The notes under the pieces: model-generated
What the model saw: only the letters and a program-made list of their open reading frames with translations
What the model was told of the DNA's origin: nothing
Databases searched by the model: none
Translations under genes and position numbers: made by a program
In this document: positions 18,053-40,500 of the stretch, in pieces
Layout of the letters: every line of letters starts with the position of its first letter
Position numbering within the stretch: the stretch's first letter is position 1
Assembly (NCBI GenBank): GCA_002721705.1
Contig: PBLJ01000060.1
Span: 1 to 43,532, forward strand
Length of the DNA: 43,532 bases
Direction: 5' to 3'
Source of the DNA: Opitutia bacterium
Lineage (GTDB): Bacteria; Verrucomicrobiota; Verrucomicrobiia; Opitutales; Seribacteraceae

Positions 18053-19426
18053 TTATTCCACTACGCGCATGACGCCCCGCATGAGCATGTGGTGTCCTGG
18101 AAAGGTGCAAAGGTAGGGATAGTCGCCCGGTGCGGGCGCGGTGAATTCAATGGTGGCCTCCTGACCATTGTCGAGCATGGAGGAACCCCAAAGTATCTTG
18201 TCCGTGTTCGGGCGAAATTGCTTGGCGAATCCCTCGGCTCCCATCGCCACCGCCAAGGCGGCCACTTCATCGGCGGTCCCGGGTTTGACGAACAGTATGT
18301 TGTGCGGTGGGAAATCGTTGTTTTTGAAAGTAACGGTTACTTTTTGCCCGGTTCGCGCGGTGAATTCCTTGACGTCGTAAAGGAGTTTTTCCTTCACGCA
18401 GGAAATGACGATGCTGAATTCATCGCCTTCAATGGCTTCCGTGGCATCAACAAAGCCCGCTCCCGCGACGTTCATTTCAAGGGAATAGAACCCGGTGCGG
18501 GCAGTTACGAAGAGGGTCTTTCCATTTTTGCCTCCAAAACAGACGTTGGAAGGTTTTTCAGGGAACTCGATTTCAGTGATTTTCTTGCCGGTGGGGTCAT
18601 AAACCAAAACGGCGCCGGAGGTGAGGTAGAGGTTTCCCTTGTTGTCGAGGGTCATGCCATCCGAGCCTGACTCCACGAACAATTTCTTGTCCGACAAAGT
18701 GCCCTCTTCGCCCTCTTCGACGGTGTAGCGAAAGGTTTTACCCTGTCCCGGATCGGCCACGTAGAGTGTTTTTCCGTCAGGTGAGCCGATTATCCCATTG
18801 GGACGCTTCAATTCTCCATCCACTCGTAAAACCTGATCCCTGTAGGGGGTGATGAAATAGAGGTGTTCCCCGTCTTGGGAGAGGTCCTGCTTGCCATAAT
18901 TTGGGTCGGTGAAGAAGACGCCGTTATTGGGGTGAATCCAGAGATCGTTCGGTTTGTTGAAGGGGCGCCCGTCATACTGGTCGGCCAATAATTCCTTTTC
19001 GCCACCGTCGTCCAAGTAGAAGGAGTTGACTTGCTGCGACAGGCCTTGGCAGGCGAACAGGTCGCCTTCCTTGGAGAAATAGAGACCATTGGCTCCACCC
19101 GAGTTTTCCATGTAAACGGATGCCGTCTTTGCCTTCACGTCCCATTTATGGATCCGGTTGTTGGGAATATCCGTGAAGAAGACGTTTCCGTCAGGACCCG
19201 TTGCGGGGCCTTCGGTGAACTTGAAACCGCCTGCTAATTTCACGGGTTCCGCTCCTTTGGCAACAAGCCCATCCTCTTTGGCGACAGGTGTCTGCCGTTC
19301 TTCCCCCTTGCCGGTTTTGGATTGTTGGTAAGGCGAAGGGCCGGCTTTTGGTGTCCTGGAGCCTTGGTCTTGGGCACAAGAAGACAAAACAGCGACTGAT
19401 ACAAGTAGCGAAAGCAATTTCTTCAT
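18053..19426 (-). CDS. Lipoprotein fusing SMP-30 propeller to azurin-like blue-copper domain
   Basis: 457 residues from the ATG at 19424-19426; a TTG 21 bases upstream is a poorer start. The signal peptide ends at lipobox VLSSC, with lipidated Cys17. After a polar linker comes an SMP-30/gluconolactonase propeller (about 55-325) with Glu72, Asn160-Asp161 (KPNDLW), Asn210 (RPNGII) and Asp256 (GSDGMT) as likely metal-site residues. Residues about 335-457 are a cupredoxin with ligands His375 (PPHN), Cys440, His445 and Met449 (CTFPGHHMLM). The family knowledge gives lactonase or sugar oxidation on the propeller and one-electron transfer on the copper domain. Joining them suggests a substrate-oxidising or redox-sensing lipoprotein. 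The gene is 98 bases downstream of the SGNH-propeller gene's stop, on the same strand. Confidence 0.88.
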   Translation of the reverse strand: MKKLLSLLVSVAVLSSCAQDQGSRTPKAGPSPYQQSKTGKGEERQTPVAKEDGLVAKGAEPVKLAGGFKFTEGPATGPDGNVFFTDIPNNRIHKWDVKAKTASVYMENSGGANGLYFSKEGDLFACQGLSQQVNSFYLDDGGEKELLADQYDGRPFNKPNDLWIHPNNGVFFTDPNYGKQDLSQDGEHLYFITPYRDQVLRVDGELKRPNGIIGSPDGKTLYVADPGQGKTFRYTVEEGEEGTLSDKKLFVESGSDGMTLDNKGNLYLTSGAVLVYDPTGKKITEIEFPEKPSNVCFGGKNGKTLFVTARTGFYSLEMNVAGAGFVDATEAIEGDEFSIVISCVKEKLLYDVKEFTARTGQKVTVTFKNNDFPPHNILFVKPGTADEVAALAVAMGAEGFAKQFRPNTDKILWGSSMLDNGQEATIEFTAPAPGDYPYLCTFPGHHMLMRGVMRVVE

Positions 19427-19485
19427 GTTTGCAGGGAGGCTCTTCAAAGCCTGGTTTTACTTTCCTTCCATTCTAAGGAAATCTC

Positions 19486-19524: not shown

Positions 19525-21975
19525 TTAAAGACGATCACGCCAGAATTGCTCTACTGTCTTGGCGGCGACGCGTGCATTGCTCTCCTTGGAATTGAGGAGT
19601 GACTGCAGGAGTTCCTTGTTCACCACATTGTGTTGCTGATGGACCCAAAGCCCTTCGAGTTGGGCGTTGGGATCCTTGTTTTTCTTCAGCCAGTCCTTGG
19701 TAGCCTTGATGACCTCGTCGGTGTCTCGACTGCTTAACTCGAATCGAGCCCGCAAGCGTATGTTGTAGGTATTGTGCTTGAGCAGGTCGAGTACCACTGG
19801 AAGCGGTTGTCCCACCACCTTGACGTGCTTCATAAGGGGGCGATCCTTTACCTTGATTCGAAAAATGCGGCCGTGGTTTTTGTCGCGGTTTGGGTCGCGC
19901 ACGTTGTGCTGCATGTGCCCGATGATGACGTTTTGCCAATCCGCCACGTAGAGGGCTCCGTCGTCGCCGATTTCGAAGTCGGTGGGACGGAAGTTCCGGT
20001 CCTTCTTGGAGACTAGGAGATCCTCGATTTGCGTGCCTTGAACATTGCCGTTTTCATCGGTTGCAAGGGTGTACTGCTTGATGCCCAGGAAACCGATGGA
20101 ATTGCAGATGAGGAAGTTTCCGTTGTTGCGCTCGGGGAAGTGATCACTGGATAGAATTCCGCTTGAAGGCACGGGACGCACGGTTTTCTTGAGCAAACTT
20201 TGCATCTTGAAACCGCCTTTGCCATCAGGGCGTACCTGATAGGCTCGGCCACCGGTTCCATCGGTTGCGAAATGATAACCCCAATGATTGAAGGATACTC
20301 CGTGTGGGTTGGGGCTGTTGTTGGCGTGGAAGGAGTATTCGAAAGTACGGGGGTTGAAGCGGTACATTGCGCTGTTCCCGTGCTGTTGGGGACCTTTCCA
20401 AGGGGTTTCCACGTTGGACACGTGGAACACGCCGCGTTGGTAATAGACGTAGCCCCCGGGGCCAAAGGTCAGGTTGTTGGCGGCATGGTGGGTGTCGGCT
20501 GAGTCGATGCCGTGCATGATGCGAATGCGGACGTCGGCTTTGTCGTCGCCATCGGTATCCTTGAGGAATATAAGGTCGGGTGCCGAAGCCACGATTACTC
20601 CGCCATTCCAGAAGGTGAAGCCGGTTGGGTTGTGGACCTTGGCGAAGACGATGGACTTGTCCGCTACGCCGTCCCGGTTCTCATCGGGGAGAATGGAGAT
20701 GGTGTCTCCCATTTCCTTGAGTGGTTCCCATTTTGGGTAAGTACGCCAAGAGGCGACCCAGAGTCGACCTTTGGGACCGACGCCTAGCTGTACCGGGTTG
20801 ATGGCTTCGGGAAACATTTCCTCGGAGGCGAAGACATTGGCTTCGAGCCCTTCGGCCAACTCGAGTTGCTCAAGCGTTTCCTTGGGAGTTTTATACTGTG
20901 CGGTACCCTCTTTGCCTGCATTGCTGCTACGCGATTTTCCGCCGATGTTTGATTTCACTGCCACGGGGGGAGGTACGTTGGAATCGTCTGCCACGATGGT
21001 TTTGCCCTTGGCGGCGGCATGAACCACCTTGTCGCGATTCGCCGTCATGACGTCGATCATCGTGAGTTCGTGAAAAAGCGCGTCCTTGTTGGATTGGTTA
21101 TCCACGAAGCGCAGGCCCGAGCGTCCGCCCCAAACGTCGTTGCCGTCGGTCGCCCGGTAGCGGTTGAACCAGTGCCAGTTCTTTTTCAGTACGGCTTCCT
21201 TGGTCTGTTTCAGGTGCTTGTGGTTGGTGGGAGCGTCTTTTCCAAATAATGTCTTGAGAATGACTTCAGCGATTTGCCGATTGCCATCATCGGTCAGATG
21301 GATGCCATTCATCGTAAGGTTTTCGCCGCTCTTGGCGTAGAGTTGTTGGGAAGCCCCGAAAAGATCGACGTACTCCACGCCTTTTTCCTTAGCCACCTCA
21401 GCGGTGGCGGTGGCGTAGGCGGCGAGGTGCTTGTTTTGTTCTTTTCCATCGGGCAAGTTCGGATTGCCGAGATCCTCATGGGCAATGGGAGAGAACAAGA
21501 CGATGCGCGGGGCGCTCTTGCCGTTGTATTGCTTGCCTTTTGTTTCGTCTATCCACTTGGAAAGGGTACCCTTGTAGGCGCCTGGATTCTTGTCCCATGC
21601 TTCGTTGGCCCCGAAGAAGGTCAGGATGACGTCCGCCTTGGAGATGGTGAGGTAGTCGTGTGGGTTTATGAAACCGCGGTTGCGGGGTCGCTTGTCCACT
21701 TTGTCTCCGCAAAAACCGTGGTTACGGAAGACCAGTTCCTTGTCGGGCATGGCGAGTTGGGCATAGGTTTCCAGCCACCCGTGGTGCTGCATCCGTTCAG
21801 CCAAAGCGTTTCCGAGGAGCACGACGTGGTCTCCTTTGTTCACCTCCAGGGCTTTTGCTTCCGGAGACGCGCCTATCAAGATAAGCGAGAAGAGCGCCGC
21901 CGGAGCGATGCCTGGAAGTTGTTGAAATTTCGCAAGAATTTGCGAAAATGCTTTTTTCGTGAGCGATCGTTTCAT
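19525..21975 (-). CDS. SGNH-hydrolase-like domain fused to PVC dehydrogenase propeller, no electron-transfer domain
   Basis: 816 residues with a long signal region (hydrophobic about 22-42). Residues 45-250 have the SGNH fold, but block I reads LLGNALAER, so the catalytic serine position holds Ala57. Gly90, Asn124 (FGANEAW) and His226 (NGIHL) are in place. From about residue 380 to 735 comes the PVC-type membrane-bound dehydrogenase propeller (LAEGLEANVFASEEMFPEAI, DENRDGVADK, DTDGDDKADV, FRPTDFEIGDDGALYVADW). The last 80 residues are HEAT-like helices, ending at QFWRDRL. Relatives usually continue into a C-terminal heme c or, as at 37547-40879, a copper domain. I see neither here. It is probably extracytoplasmic and sugar-related; the enzyme activity is unknown. 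Confidence 0.87.
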   Translation of the reverse strand: MKRSLTKKAFSQILAKFQQLPGIAPAALFSLILIGASPEAKALEVNKGDHVVLLGNALAERMQHHGWLETYAQLAMPDKELVFRNHGFCGDKVDKRPRNRGFINPHDYLTISKADVILTFFGANEAWDKNPGAYKGTLSKWIDETKGKQYNGKSAPRIVLFSPIAHEDLGNPNLPDGKEQNKHLAAYATATAEVAKEKGVEYVDLFGASQQLYAKSGENLTMNGIHLTDDGNRQIAEVILKTLFGKDAPTNHKHLKQTKEAVLKKNWHWFNRYRATDGNDVWGGRSGLRFVDNQSNKDALFHELTMIDVMTANRDKVVHAAAKGKTIVADDSNVPPPVAVKSNIGGKSRSSNAGKEGTAQYKTPKETLEQLELAEGLEANVFASEEMFPEAINPVQLGVGPKGRLWVASWRTYPKWEPLKEMGDTISILPDENRDGVADKSIVFAKVHNPTGFTFWNGGVIVASAPDLIFLKDTDGDDKADVRIRIMHGIDSADTHHAANNLTFGPGGYVYYQRGVFHVSNVETPWKGPQQHGNSAMYRFNPRTFEYSFHANNSPNPHGVSFNHWGYHFATDGTGGRAYQVRPDGKGGFKMQSLLKKTVRPVPSSGILSSDHFPERNNGNFLICNSIGFLGIKQYTLATDENGNVQGTQIEDLLVSKKDRNFRPTDFEIGDDGALYVADWQNVIIGHMQHNVRDPNRDKNHGRIFRIKVKDRPLMKHVKVVGQPLPVVLDLLKHNTYNIRLRARFELSSRDTDEVIKATKDWLKKNKDPNAQLEGLWVHQQHNVVNKELLQSLLNSKESNARVAAKTVEQFWRDRL

Positions 21976-23841: not shown

Positions 23842-26800
23842 TCAAGGATTTCTCAAGTAGGCGAGGAGATCGGCCACGCCTTGCGGATTCAAGGCGCTTT
23901 CCATACCTTCCGGCATCAAGGAGGCGCCGAGGGAACGAACGTTGGCAAGGTTTTCCCTTAACACCGTGGTTTCCTGACCCGCTGCCGTGCGAATGGTGAG
24001 GGCGTTGGCTGTTTCCGAGGCAATGACGCCGGTTAGAGCCGAGCCGTCCTTCCTGATCACGAGATAGGCTGTGTAGGTTGTTTCCACTGCCCGGTTCGGG
24101 TCAAGAATACCGACAAGCCAGTCTTCAATTGGCTTGGAGGAAAAGGCGGTCAAATCCGGACCTACCTTGTTGCCCTCGCCTTTGAAGCTATGACACAACT
24201 GGCAATTATTCTTGAAGAGCAGTTTTCCTTTCTCTGCCTTGCCTTCCAGCTCGGCGACTTTTTCATAAGCTTGGAGAACCTTTTCACGGTTGGCGTTGAT
24301 GACGCCTAGAAGGTCTTTTGCCTTTTGGGAGATTGGGGCGTTGGGGTGCTGGATAAGTTTTTGCTTATGGGCTGGACTGATCTGGGCAGCAGTCAACTTA
24401 CCGGCCTTGATGGCGTCGAGTAGTTGGTCGGTTGACTCGTCTTGGTGGAGAAGGTGATCCGTTACCCCGACCCGTTCATTTGGCCCATAGGAATGCCATT
24501 GAGCCAGCAGTGTTGAGGTGGTCAGAGAATGGTTGAGTTTGGGCAGGGCGCTCAAGGCTGCCTTGCGAATGAAAGGCAATTTGTCCGCAGCAAGAAGTTT
24601 ACTCAGGAGCCCCATGTCCTCTTTTTGCTTGGTTGGGCCACGCCCCAGAAGTTTGATCGCGGAAACCCTTGTGGAATCCTCCGCATTCTCGTCTTGAGCC
24701 GTTACCCGAACGTTTGAAAAAACGGTTTCAATAGCCTGGGTTCCCTCCTTGGAATTCTTGGCCAATCTTTTTTGAAACTGAACCAAGCTTTCCTTACGTT
24801 GCTCGATTGCATCGACAAATCCTGCCATCAAGGTGAATTGTCGCTCCATATTCTTTTCGGCGGCAGTCTCTTTCAATACCCGCGTAAGAGAGCTCAAGTG
24901 GTCGTCGAGGATGGCGTAGCGAATGAGATCGGAGACGAGGTCAGCGGGGGCTTTCGCCTTTGCCTCGAACAGTAGTTTCAGCATGGCGGCTGCATGGGGA
25001 GAGGATGAGCTCTTTATCGCCACTTGGACCCGCGGTTCCGAGGTATTGGCAAGCGCAAGCGAAACCAGTGCTTCCGCTGCCTTCGGATCCCTCCATTCGC
25101 CCAAAGAAAATCCTACTTGTCTACGGACCCTGATCGATTCGTCATTGATTCTCGAGGCAATTAAATCCCCATGCTTCTTCTCGCAGACACGAACTGCATG
25201 TTCGCGAACACCAGGATGTAAGTCCTGCAAGGCTTGCTTCAACACTTTATCATCCAAGCCGTTCAGGCCTTCCAGTATGCATAGGGCCTGCAGCCGAACC
25301 TTGGGGCTCTTCGCCGTATGAACCAGCTTCCTCAATTCGATCGAAGCGGCCTTGTCTTTTCGTTCCAGGAGCAAGCGATGAACGGTGTCGCGCTGCCAGC
25401 CATTTGGACTGTCCAGTAAGGATACCAGCTCTTGGGCGGACTTTGTTTCCAGGATCGGCGTCTTGCGGAGCTTGGCGCCTTTGGGAAACACTCGCCAGAT
25501 GCGTCCCCGGTCAGCCCCTTCCCGCAAGTTCACCCTGCTTTGCATGGTTGGGGGAATCCACTGCGGGTGTTCGATGACAAGGCGGTACATGTCGGCCACG
25601 TAGAGGGCCCCGTCGGGGCCGGTCTTGGTCATGGTGGGGCGGAACCAATTGTCCGAACTGGCTAGGAATTCCGACTTCTCCTCACCTTTGGCCCGTCGAC
25701 TGGTAAAGGTGACGCCATCTGGCTCAAGGACTTCCCGATGGACCAGGTTATGGACCGGCTCGCTGATGAATACGCTGGTCCTGAATTCGGCTCCGAAAAG
25801 TTCGTCCCGATAGGGAGATGGGCTATTCGCGCTGGTTACGTTTCCGTATTGATTGGGGCCGTTTGGCCTTTCCATTTGAGGACTGATAGGGAAGCACCGA
25901 CGTGAATCCCTGTAGTTAAAGAGTGTTTTCTTGGTATCCTTGACAACCAATTGACGGTTTCTCGAAATATAATGGTGAGGCAGGTGTATGTGCCAAAGCC
26001 AGTTTGGGTTGTTGTTTCCAAACCAGTTGCCCCAGTCGTCCCTGCGCAAACCGAACTGAGTTTGATTGAAGAGGGTTTCCATTTCGCCTGTTACTTTGAA
26101 ACGGAAGTCACGTCCGTTGATGTTTACGCTTTTACCTGTTGCGGTACTTTTGATGATACCTCCACTGTCTCCGTTGGCGGCATAAATCCAATTGTCCAAA
26201 CCAAGCTCAAACCCGTTCATTCGGTGTTGCTGGTTACCTTCTCTAAAACCAGAAAAGAGCACTTTCCTTAGATCGGCTTTGCCGTCCCCATTGGTATCCT
26301 CGGCATAGAGGATTTCGGGGGCTGCGCTTACCAGAACGCCTTTGCCCCATGGCATGACTCCGGTAGGGAAATTGAGTCCGGAGAGAAATACGGTCGAACG
26401 ATCGTATTTTCCATCCTTGTCCGTATCCTCGAGGTATCGTACCACGCCTCCGGGTTTCCCTTGGCCGTCCAAACCCAGTGGGTAGTCGCCCATTTCCGCG
26501 ACCCACAGTTTCCCGTCCGCTCCCCATTCGAAGGCCACCGGATCAAGAACCAGCGGTTCGGCGGCTACCAGTTCAACCGTGAAGCCGTCCCTTGCTTGCA
26601 GGCATTGCAGGGATTCTTGCGGCGTTCTTGCCTTTGGGGCGTCAAAGGCAAGGAGTTGTTTGAAGGAACGCCTGTCCACCTTTTGGGGCAACTTGGCGGT
26701 GTCCTCGTTCTGCACCCAGAGGTGATCACTGTGAAACCAGGCGCCGTTGTTCGGATATTCACCGCCTCTTGAAATCATTGGGATAGCTTTGCTGTCGCTA

Positions 26801-28980
26801 CGTTTTCCTTTTCCCACGGTATAACTCCATCCCGGATGCCATCCGAGCCCTGGGTTGATGCGCGTTTCCCAAAGGTGGATGCCCCAGTGGTCTTCATCGG
26901 AAAACACGATGTCATCAAAACCGTCCACATTAAGGTCTACAAACCGCAGACCTTCGCTCGCATAATTTATATTTTTGGGCAGGCCATAGGGTCGTGCGCG
27001 CCAGCTATTCTTTTTTCCATCCCAACCGTAAACTTTTTCCCCGATGAGCTCGCAAACGCCGTCATTGTCAATATCGCGAAGGAAGCCTATTTCCTCGTTT
27101 GGTTTACCGATTTCGGCAGAGAGTTTCTTTAGGTTTTCGACTATGTTTTGTTCGGCGTCGATTGCAAACCAGCGGCGGGACCCAGCACCCAATGAGCGCA
27201 CGGAAAAACTTATGGGGCGCGTCTTCTTAACGGTGTCTTTCTGCAGAATGAAAAAGAAGTAGCCACCGGAATCGAGATCCGTGATCCACCTCGGAAGATA
27301 AACCACCTCCACGGACCCGTCCTTTGCCTGCCAACGGGAAAATTCACGAGACAGATCAAAATGCAACGCATCCTTGCCATCCACCGCCAGCATGAAACCA
27401 GCGGTGCTGGGTTGGCTTTCGTAACCAAGACCACCGGTGAGACACAACGTGATGGGCTTGTCCGGATTAGCCTCCATCAATGGACTTTCCCAGTTCAACG
27501 CTTTTTCCTTGGACAATTGGCGGATCAGGTGACGGGTGGTCATGGTGCCGGTGAAGTCGTACCAATCGGACTTTTCCCCCTCGTTCTTGGTAATCCGTTC
27601 AAGAGCCGGCTTGGTATTGGCGATTAACTGGTGGGTTTTCTTGAGGCTAGTGGGCGATTTGTTGGATTGCTTCAAGGCATTCGTCTGCGCGAACTGCCAG
27701 CCATCTTCCTTGAAGGTCCAGATTTGCCCGTTGCCCTTCGCGTCCATAATCGAGGCCTCGCCTGATTTTTCCAATACGCCGGCAATACCTTGCGCTGGAT
27801 TAAAGGGCAACTTGTGTTCGGTCCAAGACGATTGTTTCGGATTCCAAATACGCGTCCGGTTTTGTTCGCCTATCAACACGTCCATGAACCCATCATTGTT
27901 GGCATCGAGAATGCGAACTGCGTTGTCCTTGCCGGCTTTGTCGCGAAGCGAACTGCCATGCAGCAGATTTTGATTCAAGCGCTCGAGGCATTCCTTGAAG
28001 TTCAGGAACTTCACTTTGCTTCCGTATGTTTCCTCTGCGTAATTGATGAAGGAAACGAATTGTTCCGAACTACTCCATCCGTGGGGATGGAAGCAAAAGT
28101 TCATTACACCTTGCTTGTGAACGGTTACGTCCAATGCTCTTTTCCAATCCTCAAGCATTTGAGGGTTTTGGTTTCCAATCAAATTTTGGGCTTCCCAGTC
28201 GCTTGGAACGGTGCAGGGGAATTCCCAACAGTTTGGCTTGATGACGTAGGGATAGGGGTAATCCTCGATGGTGCCGACGTAAGAAGAGATTTTTTCCAAG
28301 TACTTCCCAAAGGTTTCCTTGCCGTCGGCATCGATGACTAGCTTGCGAGGCACGGACTTGTCCTTGGCGGTGAAGACATTGAAGACAGAGGAGTCGATTT
28401 GAAGGTAATTGCCCTTGGCGGTGGATCGTGAGTAGATTTCCGCGAAAAACCGCGGGCTTACGCTGTTCATGGAATCGCAGCAGGGCATCCTGTAGGCAAC
28501 CGGATGGTTGCCTGGAATACTGGCCAATAGATCGAGGCTGTTATGGACGTTGTCGAAAGCGCGCCTAAAGTGTCCTTGCTGAAGCAACGGACAGGGATGG
28601 GACAGGGTATGCACCTCGATGGTGACACCTTCAGCCAGCCACTTTTGAGCTTGGGGATGGTCGGGCTTGAAGAAGTTGGTGAAAATACTGACCGGGGCTC
28701 GCCCGTCGATTTTCTTCAACCTTTCAAGAATGGGGCGCAGAAAAGCCTCGTATTTCTCAGGTCCTCGCATGTCGTCGATGCCCAAGGTGACAACGGCCTC
28801 CACTCCTTTTTCGCCGACCCATTGGGGTGTCGTCAGTTTCGGGAAATCCCGATGCGGATAAAACGGATCGACCTCTTCTAGGTAGGTGAGTCGATTTGCC
28901 GGGCTTTGGGGGACATGGGTCGCCGCCCCAAGCCCATTGGCAATTACGAGCAACAGCGTTAATCCTAAATTGTAAGGCAT
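23842..28980 (-). CDS. Giant secreted deacetylase/FG-GAP/propeller/HEAT/cytochrome c protein
   Basis: 1712 residues from the ATG at 28978-28980, two bases past the upstream stop; a longer frame exists but overlaps that gene. After a signal peptide (1-21), residues 60-290 look like a NodB-type polysaccharide deacetylase: Asp69-Asp70 (GIDD, where TFDD is usual), His124 and His128 (HTLSH), and the R164-M-P segment. Residues about 365-720 contain FG-GAP/VCBS-type repeats (DANNDGFMDVLIG, DLNVDGFDDIVF). About 795-1210 is the PVC dehydrogenase propeller (DTDKDGKYD, DTNGDGKADL), about 1215-1560 are HEAT repeats, and 1575-1712 is the PVC heme c domain with CQLCH at 1593-1597 and a probable Met ligand in SLMPEG. 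It could bind a glycan, deacetylate and oxidise it, and pass electrons on (inference). Confidence 0.88.
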   Translation of the reverse strand: MPYNLGLTLLLVIANGLGAATHVPQSPANRLTYLEEVDPFYPHRDFPKLTTPQWVGEKGVEAVVTLGIDDMRGPEKYEAFLRPILERLKKIDGRAPVSIFTNFFKPDHPQAQKWLAEGVTIEVHTLSHPCPLLQQGHFRRAFDNVHNSLDLLASIPGNHPVAYRMPCCDSMNSVSPRFFAEIYSRSTAKGNYLQIDSSVFNVFTAKDKSVPRKLVIDADGKETFGKYLEKISSYVGTIEDYPYPYVIKPNCWEFPCTVPSDWEAQNLIGNQNPQMLEDWKRALDVTVHKQGVMNFCFHPHGWSSSEQFVSFINYAEETYGSKVKFLNFKECLERLNQNLLHGSSLRDKAGKDNAVRILDANNDGFMDVLIGEQNRTRIWNPKQSSWTEHKLPFNPAQGIAGVLEKSGEASIMDAKGNGQIWTFKEDGWQFAQTNALKQSNKSPTSLKKTHQLIANTKPALERITKNEGEKSDWYDFTGTMTTRHLIRQLSKEKALNWESPLMEANPDKPITLCLTGGLGYESQPSTAGFMLAVDGKDALHFDLSREFSRWQAKDGSVEVVYLPRWITDLDSGGYFFFILQKDTVKKTRPISFSVRSLGAGSRRWFAIDAEQNIVENLKKLSAEIGKPNEEIGFLRDIDNDGVCELIGEKVYGWDGKKNSWRARPYGLPKNINYASEGLRFVDLNVDGFDDIVFSDEDHWGIHLWETRINPGLGWHPGWSYTVGKGKRSDSKAIPMISRGGEYPNNGAWFHSDHLWVQNEDTAKLPQKVDRRSFKQLLAFDAPKARTPQESLQCLQARDGFTVELVAAEPLVLDPVAFEWGADGKLWVAEMGDYPLGLDGQGKPGGVVRYLEDTDKDGKYDRSTVFLSGLNFPTGVMPWGKGVLVSAAPEILYAEDTNGDGKADLRKVLFSGFREGNQQHRMNGFELGLDNWIYAANGDSGGIIKSTATGKSVNINGRDFRFKVTGEMETLFNQTQFGLRRDDWGNWFGNNNPNWLWHIHLPHHYISRNRQLVVKDTKKTLFNYRDSRRCFPISPQMERPNGPNQYGNVTSANSPSPYRDELFGAEFRTSVFISEPVHNLVHREVLEPDGVTFTSRRAKGEEKSEFLASSDNWFRPTMTKTGPDGALYVADMYRLVIEHPQWIPPTMQSRVNLREGADRGRIWRVFPKGAKLRKTPILETKSAQELVSLLDSPNGWQRDTVHRLLLERKDKAASIELRKLVHTAKSPKVRLQALCILEGLNGLDDKVLKQALQDLHPGVREHAVRVCEKKHGDLIASRINDESIRVRRQVGFSLGEWRDPKAAEALVSLALANTSEPRVQVAIKSSSSPHAAAMLKLLFEAKAKAPADLVSDLIRYAILDDHLSSLTRVLKETAAEKNMERQFTLMAGFVDAIEQRKESLVQFQKRLAKNSKEGTQAIETVFSNVRVTAQDENAEDSTRVSAIKLLGRGPTKQKEDMGLLSKLLAADKLPFIRKAALSALPKLNHSLTTSTLLAQWHSYGPNERVGVTDHLLHQDESTDQLLDAIKAGKLTAAQISPAHKQKLIQHPNAPISQKAKDLLGVINANREKVLQAYEKVAELEGKAEKGKLLFKNNCQLCHSFKGEGNKVGPDLTAFSSKPIEDWLVGILDPNRAVETTYTAYLVIRKDGSALTGVIASETANALTIRTAAGQETTVLRENLANVRSLGASLMPEGMESALNPQGVADLLAYLRNP

Positions 28981-28982
28981 AT

Positions 28983-30311
28983 TCAAGTCGTGGCGGCTAT
29001 TTCCCAACCTTTGCGATATTTCCGCTTCAAGAACTTGGAAAGATCCCCATGGGGCCCCTTTAATTGCATGGGCTCCGCTTGCCAAGAGAGATGTTGTCCT
29101 TTGTGACGAACCGCAACGTTTCCTAGCAATACCGCTTCGGTGAGAGGACCTGCATAGTCAAAGCCATCACTTGGTTGCTTGCCCGAAAGGATACCGTCGA
29201 GCCAACCGTGGAAGTGATCTTGGCCATCCGCAAGTTGGTATGCGTAGTCGGCGAATTTTTCCTGTGGGTATAGTTTGGGAGCTCCCACGTGCGGGACCAC
29301 AAGGGTTCCTTCATCCCCGATAAATAGTGAGCCACTGCTGGGAACCCTTTCGTTTCGAGGCAAATGCCTTCCTCTGTCTTTCGGCAATCGGTTGCCGTCA
29401 TACCAAGTAATGGGAAGGATTTTTCCTGTCAGGTCGGTGCCTGGAAACTTGTATTCCACTACGTTTTGGGCAGGCCACACCTCGTCGTTCATGCCGGAAT
29501 GATAGGAACACTTGATTTCGGTGGGAGCTTCCTTGATGCGAAGGGCCGTGAATACTGGATCGAGTATGTGACACCCGAAATCACCTAGGGCTCCGTTGCC
29601 GAAGTCCTGCCAGTCGCGCCATCCCCATGGATGGTAGACCTTGCCTTCGACGTAGGGGCGTTCAGGAGCTACCCCGAGCCAAACGTCCCAAGCCAAGGTG
29701 TTTGGCACGGGAGCAGGTGTCGGTCGATCAATATGTCCGGATTTACCATGCCCCGAGGCGGCCACCCAGGAATGGACGCGTTGCACTTTGCCGATGGCGC
29801 CTTTTTGGATGAGTTGAACCGCGGTGCGATAGAAGGAGTGCGAATGGATTTGGTTGCCCATCCGGGTAATTACTTTTGATTTTGCCGCTTGGAGGCGCAT
29901 CTGACGCGCTTCCCATACGTTGTGGGTGAGCGGCTTTTGACAGAAGAGGTGTTTTCCTTTTCGCATGCAATCCAGACTCACGCGGGCGTGCATGTGGTCG
30001 GGTGTGCCGACGGTCACGGCATCCACCTTGTCGCCCATCTTGGCAAGCATTTCACGGTAGTCCTGAAAGACGGACGCATCAGGGTTTTCCTTTCGGGCGC
30101 TTGTGGTGCGAACAAGGTCCACGTCGCACAAGGCGACGTACTTCGCCTTGGCGTGACTGGACATGGCTCTGAGGTCCGCTCCACCTCGTCCCTCTGTGCC
30201 TACGGCGGCGAGTTGCAGTTTCGAGTTCAGGTTGCGACCGCTCACTATGGAGGGAGCCATCGCAAGGGCGGAAAGAGTGGTGGAGGATTGAAGAAAACTT
30301 CGGCGATTCAT
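28983..30311 (-). CDS. Gfo/Idh/MocA oxidoreductase, Tat-exported
   Basis: 442 residues from the ATG at 30309-30311, chosen because the Tat motif NRRSFLQSS then begins at residue 2; a 505-residue frame has no signal at its start and overlaps the upstream protease gene. The Rossmann domain has GTEGRGG (38-44), an atypical nucleotide loop. The usual EKP is QKP here (Gln125-Lys126-Pro127), keeping the catalytic lysine. GDFGCHILDP lies in the second domain. The family oxidises or reduces sugar hydroxyls with NAD(P), usually tightly bound when the protein is exported. It follows the protease gene by 22 bases and precedes the giant deacetylase-cytochrome gene by 2 bases. Confidence 0.9.
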   Translation of the reverse strand: MNRRSFLQSSTTLSALAMAPSIVSGRNLNSKLQLAAVGTEGRGGADLRAMSSHAKAKYVALCDVDLVRTTSARKENPDASVFQDYREMLAKMGDKVDAVTVGTPDHMHARVSLDCMRKGKHLFCQKPLTHNVWEARQMRLQAAKSKVITRMGNQIHSHSFYRTAVQLIQKGAIGKVQRVHSWVAASGHGKSGHIDRPTPAPVPNTLAWDVWLGVAPERPYVEGKVYHPWGWRDWQDFGNGALGDFGCHILDPVFTALRIKEAPTEIKCSYHSGMNDEVWPAQNVVEYKFPGTDLTGKILPITWYDGNRLPKDRGRHLPRNERVPSSGSLFIGDEGTLVVPHVGAPKLYPQEKFADYAYQLADGQDHFHGWLDGILSGKQPSDGFDYAGPLTEAVLLGNVAVRHKGQHLSWQAEPMQLKGPHGDLSKFLKRKYRKGWEIAATT

Positions 30312-30333
30312 TGGTTTTGTTTTTTTGAAATAT

Positions 30334-31035
30334 TTACTTCTTTCGCTTGGGAGGTTTGGGCCGATCGACCCAAGCCGCTTTTTCGCCGCTTTTGGCCATG
30401 ATACCGTCAATCCATTTTCGGACGGCAGCTGGTTGTGTGGCGCGACCGCCACCATGAATAATTCCGAACAGGACGTGTTCTTTCTTGTCGGGACTTTCAA
30501 TCACCCATCCTCCTCCGCTGTCACCGGCTTTGCCCGGATTGTCCGCTTTCTTCGTTATATGCTTTGCGTGCAAACCAGTGCCCTTTGCTCGTCTGTCTCG
30601 ATGAAAATGTAGCCCGCCCGAGTGCCCCACCAGGGTAAAGGGCACAACGCCGTCTTTTTCGATCAACGAGTTTTTAAGCAAGGAGACGGGTTCCACGCTC
30701 TTGATGGGTCTTTTCAATTGCAGGAGGGCCAAATCCCCCTTCGGCGCAAGGAAGGCTTTCTCCACTCGAACCGTATTATCCGGACCGAATCGAAGCTCCA
30801 CCCTTCGTTTGTTTGGGGTAAGGGCTTTGGCTCTCGCCACGTGGGTTGCCGTGAGAGCCCAAGAGGGAGAGATTAGAATCACAGTCCCCGTACCGATTCT
30901 TTTACTGTCGACGTGATAGCCTCGCCAGCCTCCACAATAGCGAAAAGTCGGCTTCTTGGCTACCTGTTCTTTTCCGTTCGTGATGCCTGCGAACAGCAGG
31001 GCGATAATGAAGAGCTTAACGACGTTGGGTATCAT
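30334..31035 (-). CDS. Small secreted trypsin-like serine protease
   Basis: 233 residues from the ATG at 31033-31035, chosen because it gives a clean signal peptide (MIPNVVKLFIIALLFAG) and avoids overlapping the upstream oxidoreductase gene. The chymotrypsin-fold triad is His65 (LTATH), Asp101 (KGDLALLQL) and Ser173 (AGDSGGGW). The domain is short, with no PDZ. The C-terminus is basic (RPKPPKRKK). It lies between two Gfo/Idh/MocA genes on the same strand with gaps of 11 and 22 bases, so it appears to be a member of their operon. A role in maturing or turning over an extracytoplasmic partner is possible. AAGG stands about 13 bases before the start. Confidence 0.82.
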   Translation of the reverse strand: MIPNVVKLFIIALLFAGITNGKEQVAKKPTFRYCGGWRGYHVDSKRIGTGTVILISPSWALTATHVARAKALTPNKRRVELRFGPDNTVRVEKAFLAPKGDLALLQLKRPIKSVEPVSLLKNSLIEKDGVVPFTLVGHSGGLHFHRDRRAKGTGLHAKHITKKADNPGKAGDSGGGWVIESPDKKEHVLFGIIHGGGRATQPAAVRKWIDGIMAKSGEKAAWVDRPKPPKRKK

Positions 31036-33446: not shown

Positions 33447-34241
33447 GTGAAGACCTTTCTGACACTTTTGCTTACGACCTGTCTGGTGACGTCGGCCAAG
33501 AGCCCTGAACCGGTTGCCCCGACCAAGACCATCGAGCTTTTCCAGGCGAAGGATTTGAGCGGATTCACCACTTGGCTGGAAGGTATTGGAGGGAAGGATG
33601 AGAAGGGTGTTTTTTCGATCAAGGACGGGGTGCTTCGGGTGTCCGGAGCGGGGCGTGGTTACGTCGGCCCCAAACAAGCCTACAAGGACTATCACCTCAG
33701 GGTGGAATACAAGTGGGGCAGGAAGACGGATGGCGGCAAGTACGTGCGAAATTCGGGTTTGCTCATCCATGCTACGGGTCCGGAGGGTAATTCAGGAGAC
33801 AAGTGGATGGCTTCGGTGGAGTGCCAACTGGCACAAGGGTGTGAAGGCGACCTCATTGTGATTCGAGGGACCGACTTCGACGGCAAGACGATCCCCGTCA
33901 CCGTCACCAGTGATACCTTGAAAGCTCGCGACAATCGTACCCGCTGGAACCCCGGTGGAAAGCCGACCAAGTGGTATGGACGACAATTTTGGTGGGCCTT
34001 GCATGATCCCGATTTCAAGGAACTGATCGACACCCGTGGGCGCTGGGATATCGCCTCTCCTCTCGGGGAATGGACCAATGTCGAAGTGATTTGCGTGGGT
34101 GCTCGCATCGCCATTAAGGTGAACGGAGTCACCGTGAATGAGGTTTACGAGGTATTCCCGGCAGGTGGACGAATTCTTTTTCAAAACGAGGGACACGAGA
34201 TTTTCTTTCGCAACGCCATCCTCCAACCCGTCAAAAAATGA
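33447..34241 (+). CDS. Secreted DUF1080 protein (3-keto-disaccharide hydrolase family)
   Basis: 264 residues starting at GTG (33447-33449), with a signal peptide (1-17, FLTLLLTTCLVTSA). The rest is one DUF1080 domain, a concanavalin-like beta-sandwich, with typical ends (IELFQAKDLSGFTTW; ILFQNEGHEIFFRNAILQPV). The Pfam family is now named for members that split 3-keto-glycosides made by neighbouring oxidoreductases. Whether this one is an enzyme or only a glycan-binding module cannot be read from the sequence. The next gene, an oxidoreductase, starts seven bases after its stop, so the two are one transcript. Confidence 0.87.
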   Translation: MKTFLTLLLTTCLVTSAKSPEPVAPTKTIELFQAKDLSGFTTWLEGIGGKDEKGVFSIKDGVLRVSGAGRGYVGPKQAYKDYHLRVEYKWGRKTDGGKYVRNSGLLIHATGPEGNSGDKWMASVECQLAQGCEGDLIVIRGTDFDGKTIPVTVTSDTLKARDNRTRWNPGGKPTKWYGRQFWWALHDPDFKELIDTRGRWDIASPLGEWTNVEVICVGARIAIKVNGVTVNEVYEVFPAGGRILFQNEGHEIFFRNAILQPVKK

Positions 34242-34248
34242 GGCAGCC

Positions 34249-35541
34249 ATGAAACTTGAACGAGCATGTACCCGACGTAACTTTATCTCTCAATCGGCCG
34301 CAGTTGGCGCAGGTGCCTTGGCTGCGACCAACTTGGCCGCTGCCGCGGATAAGAAGGCCTCTCCCATAAAGATCGGCCTCGTCGGTTGCGGCGGACGCGG
34401 CACCGGAGCTTGCCGCCAGGCTTTGCTGGCGGATCCGGGAGCAAAGCTCGTGGCCATGGCGGACATGTTCTCTGATCGCTTGGAGGGAAGCCTCGAGCGT
34501 TTGCAGGTCCTTCCCGCGATTACGGACAGAATAGAGGTGCCCGAAAAGAAACGGTTCGTTGGATTCGAGGCCTTCGACAAGTTGCTGGCCAGCGGTGTGG
34601 ACGTCGTCCTGCTTGCCACGCCACCGCACTTTCGGCCCGCCCACTTGGAAAAAGCGGTGACTGCAGGGGTGCACGTCTTTGCCGAAAAACCCGTAGCCGT
34701 GGATGGTCCGGGCATTCGATCCGTGCTGGCGTCCTGCCAATTGGCGAAGAAGAAGAAATTGTCCGTGGTCTCGGGGCTTTGCCTGCGTTACTCCTACGGT
34801 TTTCAAGAACTCGTCCGACGTCTGCAAGACGGCGCCATCGGCGATATCCTTTCCCTGCAGGCCAACGACTACCGAGGCTCGATTTGGTACAAGGAGCGCC
34901 AACCTGACTGGACGGACATGCACTACCAGATGCGCAACTGGTACTATTATACTTGGCTGTCCGGCGACTTCAACGTGGAGCAACACGTTCATTTTCTCGA
35001 CGTCTGCTCATGGGCCAAGGGGGCTTACCCCGTGAAGGCCATCGGCATGGGCGGACGCCACGTGCGAACGGAAAAGAAATACGGCAACATCTTCGACCAT
35101 CATTCCATCGTCTACGAGTATGCCGACGGAGCTAGATTGTACAGCAACACCCGTCAGATGAAGGGTTGCAAGAGCAACCTGAGCGCCGAGGTCCAGGGAT
35201 CCGCCGGCCGAGCCCGTTTTTCCGAGAGACGCAATGGAGTGACCCTCGACGCCAAGGGCAAGGACCTTTGGGTGTATCGCGGAGAGAATAACGACGTTTA
35301 CCAGACGGAGCACGATGAACTCTTTGCCAGCATACGCTCAGGCCAACCCATCAACAACGGGGAGTACATGGCAAAGAGCACCCTCCTTGCCATCATGGGT
35401 CGCATGGCTACCTACACGGGTCAGGAAATCACTTGGGACATGGCCCTCAACTCCAAGGAAGTCCTTGGTCCGGAGAAGTACGAGTGGGGTCCGGCGCCTA
35501 CTGTTCGCATCGCCATGCCCGGATTGACGAAGTTCATCTAG
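34249..35541 (+). CDS. Gfo/Idh/MocA oxidoreductase, Tat-exported
   Basis: 430 residues from the ATG at 34249-34251. A GAGG ribosome site sits 5-9 bases before it and the Tat motif TRRNFISQS follows at residues 8-16; a longer frame lies inside the preceding gene. The nucleotide loop is GCGGRG (46-51) and the catalytic motif E146-K147-P148 (FAEKPVAVD). The stretch NVEQHVHFLDVCSW holds the second-domain histidines. It is co-transcribed with the DUF1080 gene. The expected job is extracytoplasmic oxidation of a sugar at a ring hydroxyl, or the reverse. Its stop overlaps the stop of the PIG-L gene on the other strand in the four bases CTAG. Confidence 0.93.
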   Translation: MKLERACTRRNFISQSAAVGAGALAATNLAAAADKKASPIKIGLVGCGGRGTGACRQALLADPGAKLVAMADMFSDRLEGSLERLQVLPAITDRIEVPEKKRFVGFEAFDKLLASGVDVVLLATPPHFRPAHLEKAVTAGVHVFAEKPVAVDGPGIRSVLASCQLAKKKKLSVVSGLCLRYSYGFQELVRRLQDGAIGDILSLQANDYRGSIWYKERQPDWTDMHYQMRNWYYYTWLSGDFNVEQHVHFLDVCSWAKGAYPVKAIGMGGRHVRTEKKYGNIFDHHSIVYEYADGARLYSNTRQMKGCKSNLSAEVQGSAGRARFSERRNGVTLDAKGKDLWVYRGENNDVYQTEHDELFASIRSGQPINNGEYMAKSTLLAIMGRMATYTGQEITWDMALNSKEVLGPEKYEWGPAPTVRIAMPGLTKFI

Positions 35542-36356
35542 AACGGCCACAGCGTGGCTCGCTTTTCGTCGTCCAACCGGGAGGCGTATTCGCTTATTTC
35601 ATAGGCTTCGCATAAAGTGACGGCTTTTCCACGTTCCTCGCCGTAGGTCGCGACGAGGGCATCGCGGAAGCGATTGGCTCGCTCGCCGACTTGATCGATG
35701 AACCACTGACGCAGCCAATCGAGTTTTGCGTCCTCCTCGTCAGGCACTTGGTCCAGTACGCCTTCCTCATAAGGCAACCACTCGAAGACTTGGGTGCGGT
35801 GACAAGCCAGCATATCGATGATGGAGTCGACTTGTCCGTCGACGTCGAGGACGAGATCCGGCCTGAAAGGCGAGGGTCGGGTGAAGAGGTCCGCCATGTA
35901 GAGGATCACTGGGTCATTGAAGAGAGGAGGCACCTCCGGCAATACCTTGGGCACGGTGACCAAGTAGGAGGCATCCTGGGTGAGTTGGCCGACTGCGCGA
36001 TGGTCCGGATGGTAATCGCAGGGTCGATGCGTCAGCACGAGATCGGGACGAAAGGAGCGCATTTCACGAATTACGCGGTCACGGTTTTCAATAGACGGTT
36101 CGAGGTGAGCGTCGGGCAGGTTCCAGTTGAGGTATTCGGCTCCAATCACCTTGCCTGCATTTGCCGATTCCTCTTGGCGAAGTTCCCGCAATTCCTCGGA
36201 GGAGCGTTCGTGGTGACCAGCTGCTCCGTCGGTCATGGAAATCAGTTTGACCGTGGCATCCAGTTCCTTGCGGTAACGGGTCAGCAATCCGCCGGCGTGG
36301 TATTCGGCGTCATCGGGATGGGCCCCGATAAGCAGGATGCGTGGAGGCACGGACAT
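35538..36356 (-). CDS. PIG-L (LmbE-like) deacetylase, cytosolic
   Basis: 272 residues, no signal. PIG-L family hallmarks are AHPDD (His13, Asp15, Asp16) and DYHPDH (His116, His119), which bind zinc; the family removes acetyl groups from N-acetylglucosaminyl compounds. The TDGAAGHH segment is typical. It is divergent from the cytosolic oxidoreductase at 36477-37523 across 120 bases and convergent with the Tat-exported oxidoreductase. A natural role would be deacetylation of an imported N-acetylated sugar or its derivative, but a thiol-cofactor (BshB-like) role cannot be excluded from sequence alone. Confidence 0.92.
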   Translation of the reverse strand: MSVPPRILLIGAHPDDAEYHAGGLLTRYRKELDATVKLISMTDGAAGHHERSSEELRELRQEESANAGKVIGAEYLNWNLPDAHLEPSIENRDRVIREMRSFRPDLVLTHRPCDYHPDHRAVGQLTQDASYLVTVPKVLPEVPPLFNDPVILYMADLFTRPSPFRPDLVLDVDGQVDSIIDMLACHRTQVFEWLPYEEGVLDQVPDEEDAKLDWLRQWFIDQVGERANRFRDALVATYGEERGKAVTLCEAYEISEYASRLDDEKRATLWPF

Positions 36357-36383
36357 TTCGGTTTGCGTTGGTTTTTATCTTGC

Positions 36384-36411
36384 GACTCTCGAATAGGCGA
36401 AAAGACTCTCG
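36384..36411. promoter_or_regulatory. Direct repeats in the PIG-L/oxidoreductase divergent gap
   Basis: GACTCTCG occurs at 36384-36391 and again at 36404-36411, spaced 20 bases (about two helix turns). It is a possible tandem binding site between divergently transcribed genes. Only two copies exist, so chance is not excluded. Confidence 0.25.
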
Positions 36412-36476
36412 GTCCTTATCGTTCCCCTTTCGGACTCATTCGCCAATCCCAAAACTCGTTACCCAAGGAATTTCCC

Positions 36477-37523
36477 ATGGCCAAATACAACGTTGGAATC
36501 ATCGGCTACGGTTGGGCCGCCACGGCCCATATCAATGCCATCAACGCCTGCCCCGACGCCGAGGTCGTCGCAATCTATTCTTCACGACCGCTCGACAAAG
36601 ACGAGCTGAAGCAACGCTATGGGTCCGACATCACGCCCTACCGCGACGTCAAGAAATTGATCGCGGACGAAAACGTCAACGTGGTGGACATTTGTAGTTA
36701 TCCCTACCAACACGCCAAGCAAGCCATCGCGGCGGCGGAAGCGGGCAAACACCTCATCGTCGAGAAACCCTTGGCTCTTTCCTTGAAGGACGTGTACGCC
36801 ATGCAAAAGGCGGCCAAGAAAGCCGGCGTGGGCACATGCGTTTGTTTCGAGGCCTGGTTCTCGAACCAGTTTCAGTCGACCAAGGCCATCATCGACAAGG
36901 GTTTGCTTGGTTCCATCCATTACGGGGAAATCGATTACTACCATGGAGTAGGTCCTTGGTATGGTCAGTATCGTTGGAACGTGAAGAAACGGGCTGGTGG
37001 CAGCAGTTTGCTGTCTGCGGGTTGCCATGCCATGGACGCTCTTCGCGGGTGCATGGAAGGTGAAGTGGTGGAGGTCAGCAGTTACGCCACCCAATCGCAG
37101 CACAAGTACTTCAAGAAATACGAGTACCCGACCACCACCGTGACCATCATGAAGTTCAAGGACGGGCGCGTGGGCAAGACCGCTTCCGTGCTCGACTGTC
37201 TGCAGCCCTACTATTTCCACACCCATTTGGTCGGTAGCAAGGGAAGTTTGCTCGACAACAAGTTGCATTCCGAAGACCTCAAGTCGGACAAGACCGAATG
37301 GAGCGAGCTTTCCATGAAACTGGTCGACTCGGGTGACGTCGCGGATCATCCCTACCAAACTCAGTTCGAGGCCTTTTTCGATGCCATGAACAAGGGCAAG
37401 GATATGCCGCACACCAGTCTCGATGAGGCCGTCCTCTCGCATGAAATCATTTTCGCAGCCGATCTTTCCGCCGCCAAAGGTCGTCCGGTCAAGATCTCCG
37501 AGATTCGCAAGACGGGCAAGTAA
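36477..37523 (+). CDS. Gfo/Idh/MocA oxidoreductase, cytosolic
   Basis: 348 residues from the ATG at 36477-36479, with AAGGA about 12 bases upstream. The open frame continues far to the left, but that part is antisense to the PIG-L gene. The nucleotide loop is GYGWAA (10-15), the catalytic motif E96-K97-P98 (IVEKPLALS), and SAGCHAMDALR is the substrate-site helix. Unlike the other three oxidoreductases here it has no signal, so it acts in the cytoplasm. It is followed after 23 bases by the SGNH/cupredoxin gene. It may process the sugar after uptake, alongside the divergent PIG-L deacetylase. Confidence 0.93.
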   Translation: MAKYNVGIIGYGWAATAHINAINACPDAEVVAIYSSRPLDKDELKQRYGSDITPYRDVKKLIADENVNVVDICSYPYQHAKQAIAAAEAGKHLIVEKPLALSLKDVYAMQKAAKKAGVGTCVCFEAWFSNQFQSTKAIIDKGLLGSIHYGEIDYYHGVGPWYGQYRWNVKKRAGGSSLLSAGCHAMDALRGCMEGEVVEVSSYATQSQHKYFKKYEYPTTTVTIMKFKDGRVGKTASVLDCLQPYYFHTHLVGSKGSLLDNKLHSEDLKSDKTEWSELSMKLVDSGDVADHPYQTQFEAFFDAMNKGKDMPHTSLDEAVLSHEIIFAADLSAAKGRPVKISEIRKTGK

Positions 37524-37546
37524 ACCGACGTAGCGTGACCTTTGCC

Positions 37547-40500
37547 ATGATCAGGATTGCTCTGGCGGCCTTGCTTTCGTTTTGGGCTTCGTACGCTCGG
37601 GCTCAATTGGAGTTCAAGAAGGGGGATCGCATCCTGCTCTATGGTAATTCCTTCGTCGAGCGCTTGCAGGAAGATGGGCGCTTCGAAGCGTCGCTGCAAT
37701 TGGCCCATCCCGACAAACACCTGCAATTTCGTAGTTTGGCTTGGACGGGTGACGAGGTGGGATACCGTTTGCGGCCCGAGCGCTACGTCAACCATCTCAA
37801 GAAGTTGCTCGACCAATGGCCGGCGAACGTCGTGATCCTTGGCTTCGGCCTGAACGAGTCTTTTGCAGGTGAAAAAGGATTAACCAAGTTTCGGGCTGAC
37901 TTGACGGGCTATCTCAAGGAAATCGAGAGGCGCCATCCCGATGCGAGAGTCATCCTTCTTTCCCCCATCGCCACGGAAGACCTGAAGCATCCCCACTACC
38001 CAGATCCGCAAAAGCGCAATGCGGAAACAAAGCAATACCTCGAGGTCATGTCCAAAGTGGCGACCGAGCGAAAGGTGGGATTCGTCGACCTCCATACACC
38101 CAGCAAGGAGGCTTATGCTCGTCATGACGCGCCGCTGACCGAGAACGGCATTCATCTCAATGACGCCGGTCACCAATGGGTTGCCGCCCATTTGGCTCGC
38201 GAGCTCTTGGGAGAGGCGGCTTTTGCCAAGGTGAAACCAAGCCGGGCGGCGGAGGTGGCCAAGGCGGTTTCCCGCAAGGCGGGATACGTCGCAACCATCG
38301 TTCGACCGGTCAACACGGTGCTCTACTTCGGTGTTCGCGGGCGAGCCAATGAATACAACGCCGACATGCCTCGCTACCACGCCTTGGTTGCAAAAGCCGA
38401 TGCCGTTACTCATGCCTTGTGTAAAGACACGAAGCTCGCTTTCGATGCCACCCCTTTGACCTTGGAGCCTCTGGTCAAAAAGGAACCGGTCGCCCTGCCG
38501 TCACCGGCCGAGATGCTGAGGTCCTTCCAGGTGGCGGATGGTTATAAAGTGAATCTCTTCGCCTCGGAGAAGGAATTTCCTGAATTACGCAATCCCGAGC
38601 AGATCGCCTTCGATGCCCGTGGGCGCCTTTGGGTGGTCACCATGCCTTCCTTTCCCAGCACCATTCCCGGGGACGTTCCCCATGACAAGATCATCGTGCT
38701 GGAAGACACCGACCACGACGGCAAGGCGGATAAATCGACCATCTTCGCCGACCAACTGAACGTTCCGGATGGCTTGGCTTTCTACAAGGACGGCGTAATC
38801 ATTTCCCATCAACCTCGTCTTGTCTTCATGAAGGACACCACTGGCGACGGCAAAGCCGACCTGAGTCGTGAAATCATGCGAGGCATCGACGTCACGGATG
38901 CCCATCATGGCGGCATGATCGCGATGGGTCCCATGGGGAACGTCATGTTTTGCGACGGGGTTTTTCACCGTTCACAACTGGAGACTCCTCATGGCGTCAC
39001 GAGAGGCGTGGATGCCACTACCTACCGCTTCGACCTGCGCAAGGGTACCGTGGAGCGTGAATACCAAACTTTGACTCCGAACCCTTGGAAGATCACTTGG
39101 GACCGTTGGGGGAACTTGTTCCAAATGTATGGCGACGGCTTCGTGCAGGACAGTCATGCCATTCCCTGGACCCCCTTTGGTGTTTATCACCCCTTCAAGC
39201 GAGCCATTAGCGTGGCCTATGGAAAAGGGTCAGCCGCGGCCGTCATTTCCAGTCCCAATTTCCCCGATGAGTACCAGCAAGGCATGGCCTCGGCCGTCTT
39301 GCTCCGCAAATGCTTCGTGTCGATCTCCAAGCACAAGGCGGACGGGGCTTATTTCAAGGCCAGCGATCGCCTGGACGTCTTGTCTTCCCCTAACCAACTG
39401 TTCCGTCCGGTGGACATTGCCTTCGGTCTCGACGGCGCAATGTACGTCTCGGACTTTTGCTCGCGTATCATCGGGCATGCCCAGAACTCCATGCGCGATC
39501 CGCGCTGGGACCCTCAGTGTGGACGAGTTTGGCGGATCGTCCATACAGGTAAGCCTGTTGTCAAGGAGTGGCCCAAAATCGAGGGAGGCTCGACCAGCGA
39601 ACTGCTCGATTTACTGAACCATCCGCAGGACTTGGTGCGTGATCACGCCCGCCGCAAGTTAAGACACACCACCGGCATTGTCCCGATCCTTGATCGCTGG
39701 CTGAAGACCGTCGACATGGACGAACCAGCCTTGGAAGCTCTTTGGATTTTGCAGGATCAGGACGAGGTCCGCCAGAGCCTCTTGGAGAAGCTTCTGGGCT
39801 CCTCCGATGCCCGCATTCGGGCCGCCGCCACCCATTTGATCCGTTTTCAGGCGGACCAGCTCAAGGATCCGCTGGCTTTGCTCAAGAAAATGGCCAAGGA
39901 CCCGCACAAGCGGGTACGAACAGAGGTCATTCAGGTGGTCTCCCATTTGCAACGCAAGGATCCAGCTTATGCTTCCTTACTGGGGCAAGTGAAGGTGGAA
40001 GGCGACAGGTCATTACAGACCATTCTCGAGGACGCCAGTCACGGTGTGAGGTCTGGTCAAGGTCCCGAGATCCCCGTCATGGAAAAGCCCCAGTCGGGGA
40101 AGTTGACCCATTGGTTTCTCAAGGAAGGAGAAAAGCCCGAGCGAGTGTACCAAGTCGGTGGATCCGCTGGTTCTTTCGGCTCGATGCGTACCTTCGTACG
40201 TTCCTCAAAGGCCGAGCGGGCCATTCTCTCCATTCGGCACAGCTACGTGAAGGTATTCCTCAATGGTGTTCCCGTCATTTCCTCCGCCAACTGGTGGAGC
40301 TCCGACTGGAACGTTCAGGTCGACCTACGTGCCGGGGTGAATCAGATCGAGGCGAAATACGTCAAGGGAAGGGGGGCGAGGGGCTATGCCCCGGTATATT
40401 TGTTCGATCCCTTGGGGCAAGCCCTCGAGAATCTGGAAACCTCCAAGGACGAAGCTTCTCTAAAGATTCTAGCCACTGCCTACGACAAGGCACATGGCTT

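Follow-up and report, generated by a model that had tools for sequence, protein, structure and literature searches.

The 43,532-nucleotide stretch of Opitutia bacterium DNA analysed here (the window) contains an open frame in which a polysaccharide deacetylase domain is followed by FG-GAP-type repeats, a propeller, HEAT repeats and a heme c domain. It raises two questions: is this one gene, and what could a single chain do with a deacetylase at one end and a heme at the other? The frame runs for 1712 codons without interruption on the minus strand, and the stop codon of the upstream Gfo/Idh/MocA gene (TGA, 28985-28983) ends 2 bases before its ATG; the TTG start in the listed frame of that upstream gene is probably too early. 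The features are:

23842..28980, minus strand: whole gene, 1712 aa, open from the ATG at 28980 to the stop at 23842-23844, with 64 single-frame full-length homologues
28912..28980, minus strand: hydrophobic N-terminal stretch, residues 1-23, likely Sec signal, sequence MPYNLGLTLLLVIANGLGAATHV
27976..28848, minus strand: NodB/CE4 deacetylase domain, residues ~45-335 (PF01522, PdaC profile match, predicted fold, invariant residues)
27673..27975, minus strand: FG-GAP-type beta region, first part, residues ~336-436 (D-x-N-x-D-G-x-x-D motif, weak PF01839, high-confidence strands)
27094..27672, minus strand: insertion of ~190 residues within the FG-GAP region, residues ~437-629 (mostly absent elsewhere, pLDDT <50)
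26647..27093, minus strand: FG-GAP-type beta region, second part, residues ~630-778 (PF13517 at 636-692, pLDDT ~90)
25480..26622, minus strand: DUF7133/TIGR02604 propeller, GSDH-like, residues 787-1167 (Pfam 517 bits, NCBIfam 266 bits, fold, profile)
24256..25476, minus strand: HEAT repeat region, residues ~1169-1575 (PF13646, HEAT_2, in four stretches; helical model)
23845..24255, minus strand: heme c domain TIGR02603, C1593-x-x-C1596-H1597 (NCBIfam 127 bits)
28983..30500, minus strand: upstream Gfo/Idh/MocA oxidoreductase gene (PF01408 and PF19051)

Reading the frame and its stops upheld the coordinates of the initial annotation, which named no strand, and the two-base spacing that it gave after the oxidoreductase gene, and Pfam and NCBIfam matches upheld its list of domains throughout. 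The protein is likely exported via a Sec signal, to judge from the hydrophobic N-terminus; attachment of heme c requires export too.

The first question was answered by homologues. A scan of species genomes gave 471 relatives, and among the best 80 of these we found 64 full-length homologues in a single frame, with the same domain order and 42-75% identity from near the start to the end. Verrucomicrobiota and Planctomycetota supply most of them, and a few are from metagenome-assembled genomes with other labels. The combination, which had been taken as new, thus belongs to a widespread family of these two phyla and is not confined to this genome, while the reading as one gene rather than two stands. 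Frames were broken at four loci, by runs of N (L005, L063), an in-frame stop (L020) or frameshifts (L030); with 64 intact frames, a two-gene or frameshift artefact is ruled out. The fusion gene is real and conserved, and probably functional. The broken frame of L020 (7935-12935) has one in-frame TAA with an extra stretch before it, and is possibly a pseudogene or an assembly error. At L115 (907-3693) the frame stops early in the DUF7133 domain, after 929 codons, and the next 7 kb have no DUF7133 match; this is a truncated gene or an assembly fault.

Is the N-terminal domain a deacetylase? Polysacc_deac_1 (PF01522) matches residues 61-167 at 19.2 bits when the protein is searched, against a gathering cut-off of 23.1, and at 24.4 bits, above that cut-off, in the genome search; homologue L068 scores 24.6 bits. 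A profile of the domain run against the PDB picked out PdaC (E 1.4e-5), and motifs 1 to 3 of the two lined up. In the AlphaFold model the domain has pLDDT mostly >90, and its top PDB fold matches (3rxz, 5znt, 5z34, 8t0j, 1z7a, 5jmu and 6h8l) are polysaccharide, chitin or peptidoglycan deacetylases and ArnD, PdaC (6h8l) included, which bears out the proposed NodB/CE4 fold.

The active-site residues are conserved without exception. In an alignment of 65 sequences, with pairwise identity as low as 38%, D69, D70, H124, H128, R164, P166 and H298 are invariant (65/65). The motif 1 pair D69/D70 (base and metal ligand) aligns to LTFDDG of PdaC, the motif 2 His-x-x-x-His (H124/H128) to HSWSH and the motif 3 Arg-x-Pro (R164/P166) to RPP; for H298, order and position are the sole grounds for calling it motif 5, the aligned PDB region stopping before it. 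Asp70, His124 and His128, named in the initial annotation as candidate metal ligands, therefore correspond to residues of motifs 1 and 2 in PdaC. Its description of GIDD as a variant motif did not hold up, because Ala (36), Gly (20) or Ser (9) precedes the Ile in the 65 sequences, so that xIDD of this kind, mostly AIDD, is the norm for the family. The invariance of the motif residues rules out a degenerate deacetylase. The domain shares its fold, motifs 1-3 and a motif-5-like invariant His with CE4/NodB deacetylases (PdaC, chitin deacetylases, ArnD), but differs from the solved members in its distant sequence, in its motif 1 (AIDDMR) and motif 3 (RMPCCDS), and in being fused to redox domains. 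From alignment and model together, we infer that it is an active CE4-type enzyme.

The FG-GAP-type region that follows has the D-x-N-x-D-G-x-x-D motif near residues 355-370, with a weak PF01839 match at ~357-373, and FG-GAP_3 (PF13517) at residues 636-692, below cut-off here and above cut-off in L055 and L068. The insertion between its two parts was modelled at pLDDT <50, has no Pfam match (residues ~437-629) and is largely missing in most homologues. A related stretch was found in the ceramidase-like open reading frame next door in L006 (6129-8159), so the insertion may be a mobile domain in its own right.

The propeller is the part on which the second question turns. DUF7133 matches residues 787-1167 at 517 bits, and TIGR02604 scores 266.5 bits against a cut-off of 122.2. 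The fold matches include the sGDH structures 8re0, 5min and 1c9u (probability 1.00, target TM 0.47-0.49), and also luciferin-regenerating enzyme. When a DUF7133 profile of 183 sequences was compared with a GSDH alignment built from related genomes, 284 columns were aligned at P 1.7e-10, against P 0.14-0.59 for ten column-shuffled controls; with a profile restricted to the narrow family, the match to GSDH was merely local and trivial. His919, invariant in the 65 sequences, aligns to the His of the GSDH motif NHNGG, which is catalytic in sGDH. The propeller thus has its fold, a profile match and this His in common with GSDH (PF07995; sGDH/aldose sugar dehydrogenase), and looks to be of dehydrogenase descent, as judged by profile and model. 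It differs from GSDH in that PF07995 finds no match in the fusion protein up to E 1, in the far larger chain, and in having Gln973-Thr974 at the columns where GSDH has Arg-Asn, the PQQ contacts of sGDH. Because of this replacement, use of PQQ by the propeller seems doubtful. Some 20 other DUF7133 sequences have Arg-Asn-Pro at these columns. A search of 16 genomes for PqqC gave no match anywhere, controls included, and is silent on PQQ either way. One DUF7133 paralogue (L106, 748-3423) matches both DUF7133 and GSDH and is a bridge between the two families.

Behind the HEAT repeats, TIGR02603 matches residues 1580-1710 at 127 bits (cut-off 68.15), with Cytochrom_C at 1582-1636; the nearest solved relative of this domain is Kustd1711. 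C1593, C1596, H1597 and M1689 are invariant in the 65 sequences, and Met1689, in an invariant Met-Pro, is by its conservation the probable axial heme ligand. The homologue L055 (7092-12962) has extra residues beyond the heme domain, with a weak CBM_35 match below cut-off.

The loss of the PQQ-binding Arg-Asn could mean that the deacetylase head is the sole enzyme, and that neither the propeller nor the heme tail is catalytic, both serving in anchoring, binding, or electron storage and sensing. It would also be in keeping with such a role that the front half stands alone in three genomes (G242, G612, G559), as proteins of 649-693 residues that end at the FG-GAP/DUF7133 junction. We nevertheless consider this unlikely: the propeller is conserved as well as the CE4 domain among homologues (median identity 60% and 58%, respectively), His919, Asn922, Asp958 and Arg960 are kept in most DUF7133 paralogues, and the heme ligands do not vary.

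The stand-alone deacetylase and FG-GAP proteins lie at

L114 1414-3492
L116 2257-4230, minus strand
L119 1633-3579

In a tree of the deacetylase domain, L114 is firmly within the fused proteins, so at least this one seems to have lost its rear half at a later stage; L116 falls among the fused proteins without resolved support, and L119 is on a long branch whose place is unsure. Hits of the deacetylase-domain profile came from 8 genomes out of 188 in the same class, from 16 in a sample of 294 from the Singulisphaera phylum and, in a sample of 195 from the source genome's own phylum, from that genome alone; this sole match reflects a patchy distribution. There was one copy per genome, except for one genome with two. 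The fusion was likewise single-copy in 15 genomes picked for having it, and none of these 15 had a separate deacetylase of its kind.

How does the protein relate to known systems? The source genome has 30 DUF7133 matches in ~26 genes, some genes having two, and at least 15 of the ~26 proteins have a heme c motif or a cupredoxin. The heads joined to DUF7133 include CE4 (the fusion gene), GDSL esterases (L094, L098 and two in the window) and ThuA (L087, L092, L093). Since one genome has DUF7133 with all three heads and with either heme or cupredoxin as the tail, the order of sugar-handling head, DUF7133, HEAT and electron carrier is a recurrent plan, of which the CE4-headed protein is one version. 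The GDSL and ThuA fusions follow this plan, a sugar-handling head joined to DUF7133 and often to HEAT and a tail with heme or cupredoxin; they differ in the kind of head, and in the GDSL group the DUF7133 match is split or shorter. The two examples in the window are a GDSL esterase and DUF7133 fusion at 19525-21975 (minus strand) and a GDSL esterase with DUF7133, HEAT repeats and a cupredoxin tail at 37535-40879 (plus strand).

Residues 787-1712 fit the PVC-type heme-binding CxxCH proteins (TIGR02604 and TIGR02603; DUF7133), with HEAT between; these models describe the rear half only, and the CE4 and FG-GAP half falls outside the family definition. The fusion counts as a variant within the PVC-type heme-binding proteins and not as a kind of its own. 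We found no description of a deacetylase-headed fusion in the open-access literature, a scope outside which most subscription papers lie. By its description, one precedent in plan is fungal: CcPDH of Coprinopsis cinerea (AA12) combines a PQQ domain that oxidises sugars with a heme domain and a module for glycan binding (PMC4332668). CcPDH differs in its N-terminal heme b, C-terminal CBM1, PQQ binding and lack of a deacetylase, and the PQQ Arg-Asn is missing in the fusion.

A related protein, Lac161_ORF7, is the one tested example with TIGR02604, HEAT and heme c; it has them in the same order, with no deacetylase or FG-GAP reported, and has been reported as a beta-galactosidase, rather than a dehydrogenase, that hydrolyses lactose with a Km of 1.8 mM (PMC5342196). 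The DUF7133 propeller might accordingly be a glycoside hydrolase, the protein both deacetylating and cleaving a glycan and the heme serving some other purpose. This we find distinctly improbable, as it rests on a single report, the propeller is GSDH-like, and the many heme or cupredoxin domains among the DUF7133 proteins of the genome point to redox work.

We favor, with moderate confidence, an exported, self-contained glycan-processing enzyme that deacetylates its substrate, then oxidises the sugar and hands the electrons on to the heme of the same chain, given the invariant CE4 motifs, the CE4 fold, the GSDH profile match and the invariant heme ligands. Deacetylation, the substrate, sugar oxidation, the cofactor, the electron path and export are each what we infer from these features. 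The CE4 domain would strip acetyl groups, most likely the N-acetyl groups of an amino-sugar glycan, with the metal held by Asp70, His124 and His128, Asp69 acting as the base and His298 as the acid. The FG-GAP region may be a calcium-binding spacer or a glycan-docking surface. The propeller would then oxidise the exposed sugar, with His919 as the putative catalytic base, while the HEAT arm would position the C-terminal heme c, which would accept the electrons and pass them to the respiratory chain. The sGDH fold matches, His919, the GDSL and ThuA heads, the sugar genes nearby and the CcPDH precedent argue for sugar oxidation; Gln973-Thr974 in place of Arg-Asn, the lack of a PF07995 match and the reported activity of Lac161_ORF7 weaken it. 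The front halves that occur alone mean that the two halves need not share one target molecule. The most specific form of the proposal, that one chain couples glycan deacetylation to oxidation by a propeller with a cofactor other than PQQ, with electrons to its own heme, is tentative and rather unlikely.

The gene neighbourhood bears on this in two ways. Within ~15 kb of the fusion gene there are one 3keto-disac_hyd, four Gfo/Idh/MocA and two AP_endonuc_2 (sugar isomerase-like) genes, which would fit keto-sugar handling, and DUF1080 proteins work on 3-keto sugars (PMC9007349). The propeller could then yield 3-keto sugars for the nearby 3-keto-glycoside hydrolases and Gfo/Idh/MocA proteins, with deacetylation clearing the way. 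This proposal is rather improbable, since those genes are not conserved beside distant homologues, and genes of these types are abundant in Planctomycetes (PMC5673643). When homologue loci were compared, no neighbour was common to the distant ones and no conserved operon partner emerged; AP_endonuc_2, EF-hand or Gfo/Idh/MocA neighbours are kept in the closest relatives only. The lack of conserved sugar-related neighbours counts against the glycan-processing enzyme that we favor, while a chain kept whole as its neighbours vary fits a unit that works alone.

PVC bacteria are rich in DUF7133 proteins that end in a heme or copper tail, and there is no agreement on what these catalyse. In the deacetylase-headed type the first step can be recognised, the active site is invariant and the architecture is fixed. 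This type thus provides a concrete substrate hypothesis, an acetylated glycan, from which to work out what DUF7133 does and whether the breakdown of polysaccharides in these bacteria sends electrons straight into respiration outside the cytoplasm. If the proposal is true, the protein would represent a new esterase-oxidoreductase class, with the GDSL- and ThuA-headed DUF7133 proteins as sister types. The architecture stands out and lends itself to testing, while the oxidation step is our reading of it.

Three other loci in the window encode sugar-related proteins. A gene cluster at 33447-37523 has a 3-keto-disaccharide hydrolase gene, Gfo/Idh/MocA genes and, on the other strand, a PIG-L de-N-acetylase gene. 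At 18053-19447 (minus strand), an SMP-30/gluconolactonase-like domain and a C-terminal cupredoxin share one chain. At 2229-5009 (minus strand), a sodium:solute symporter has an N-terminal kelch domain resembling N-acetylneuraminate epimerase, in a single chain of 926 residues.
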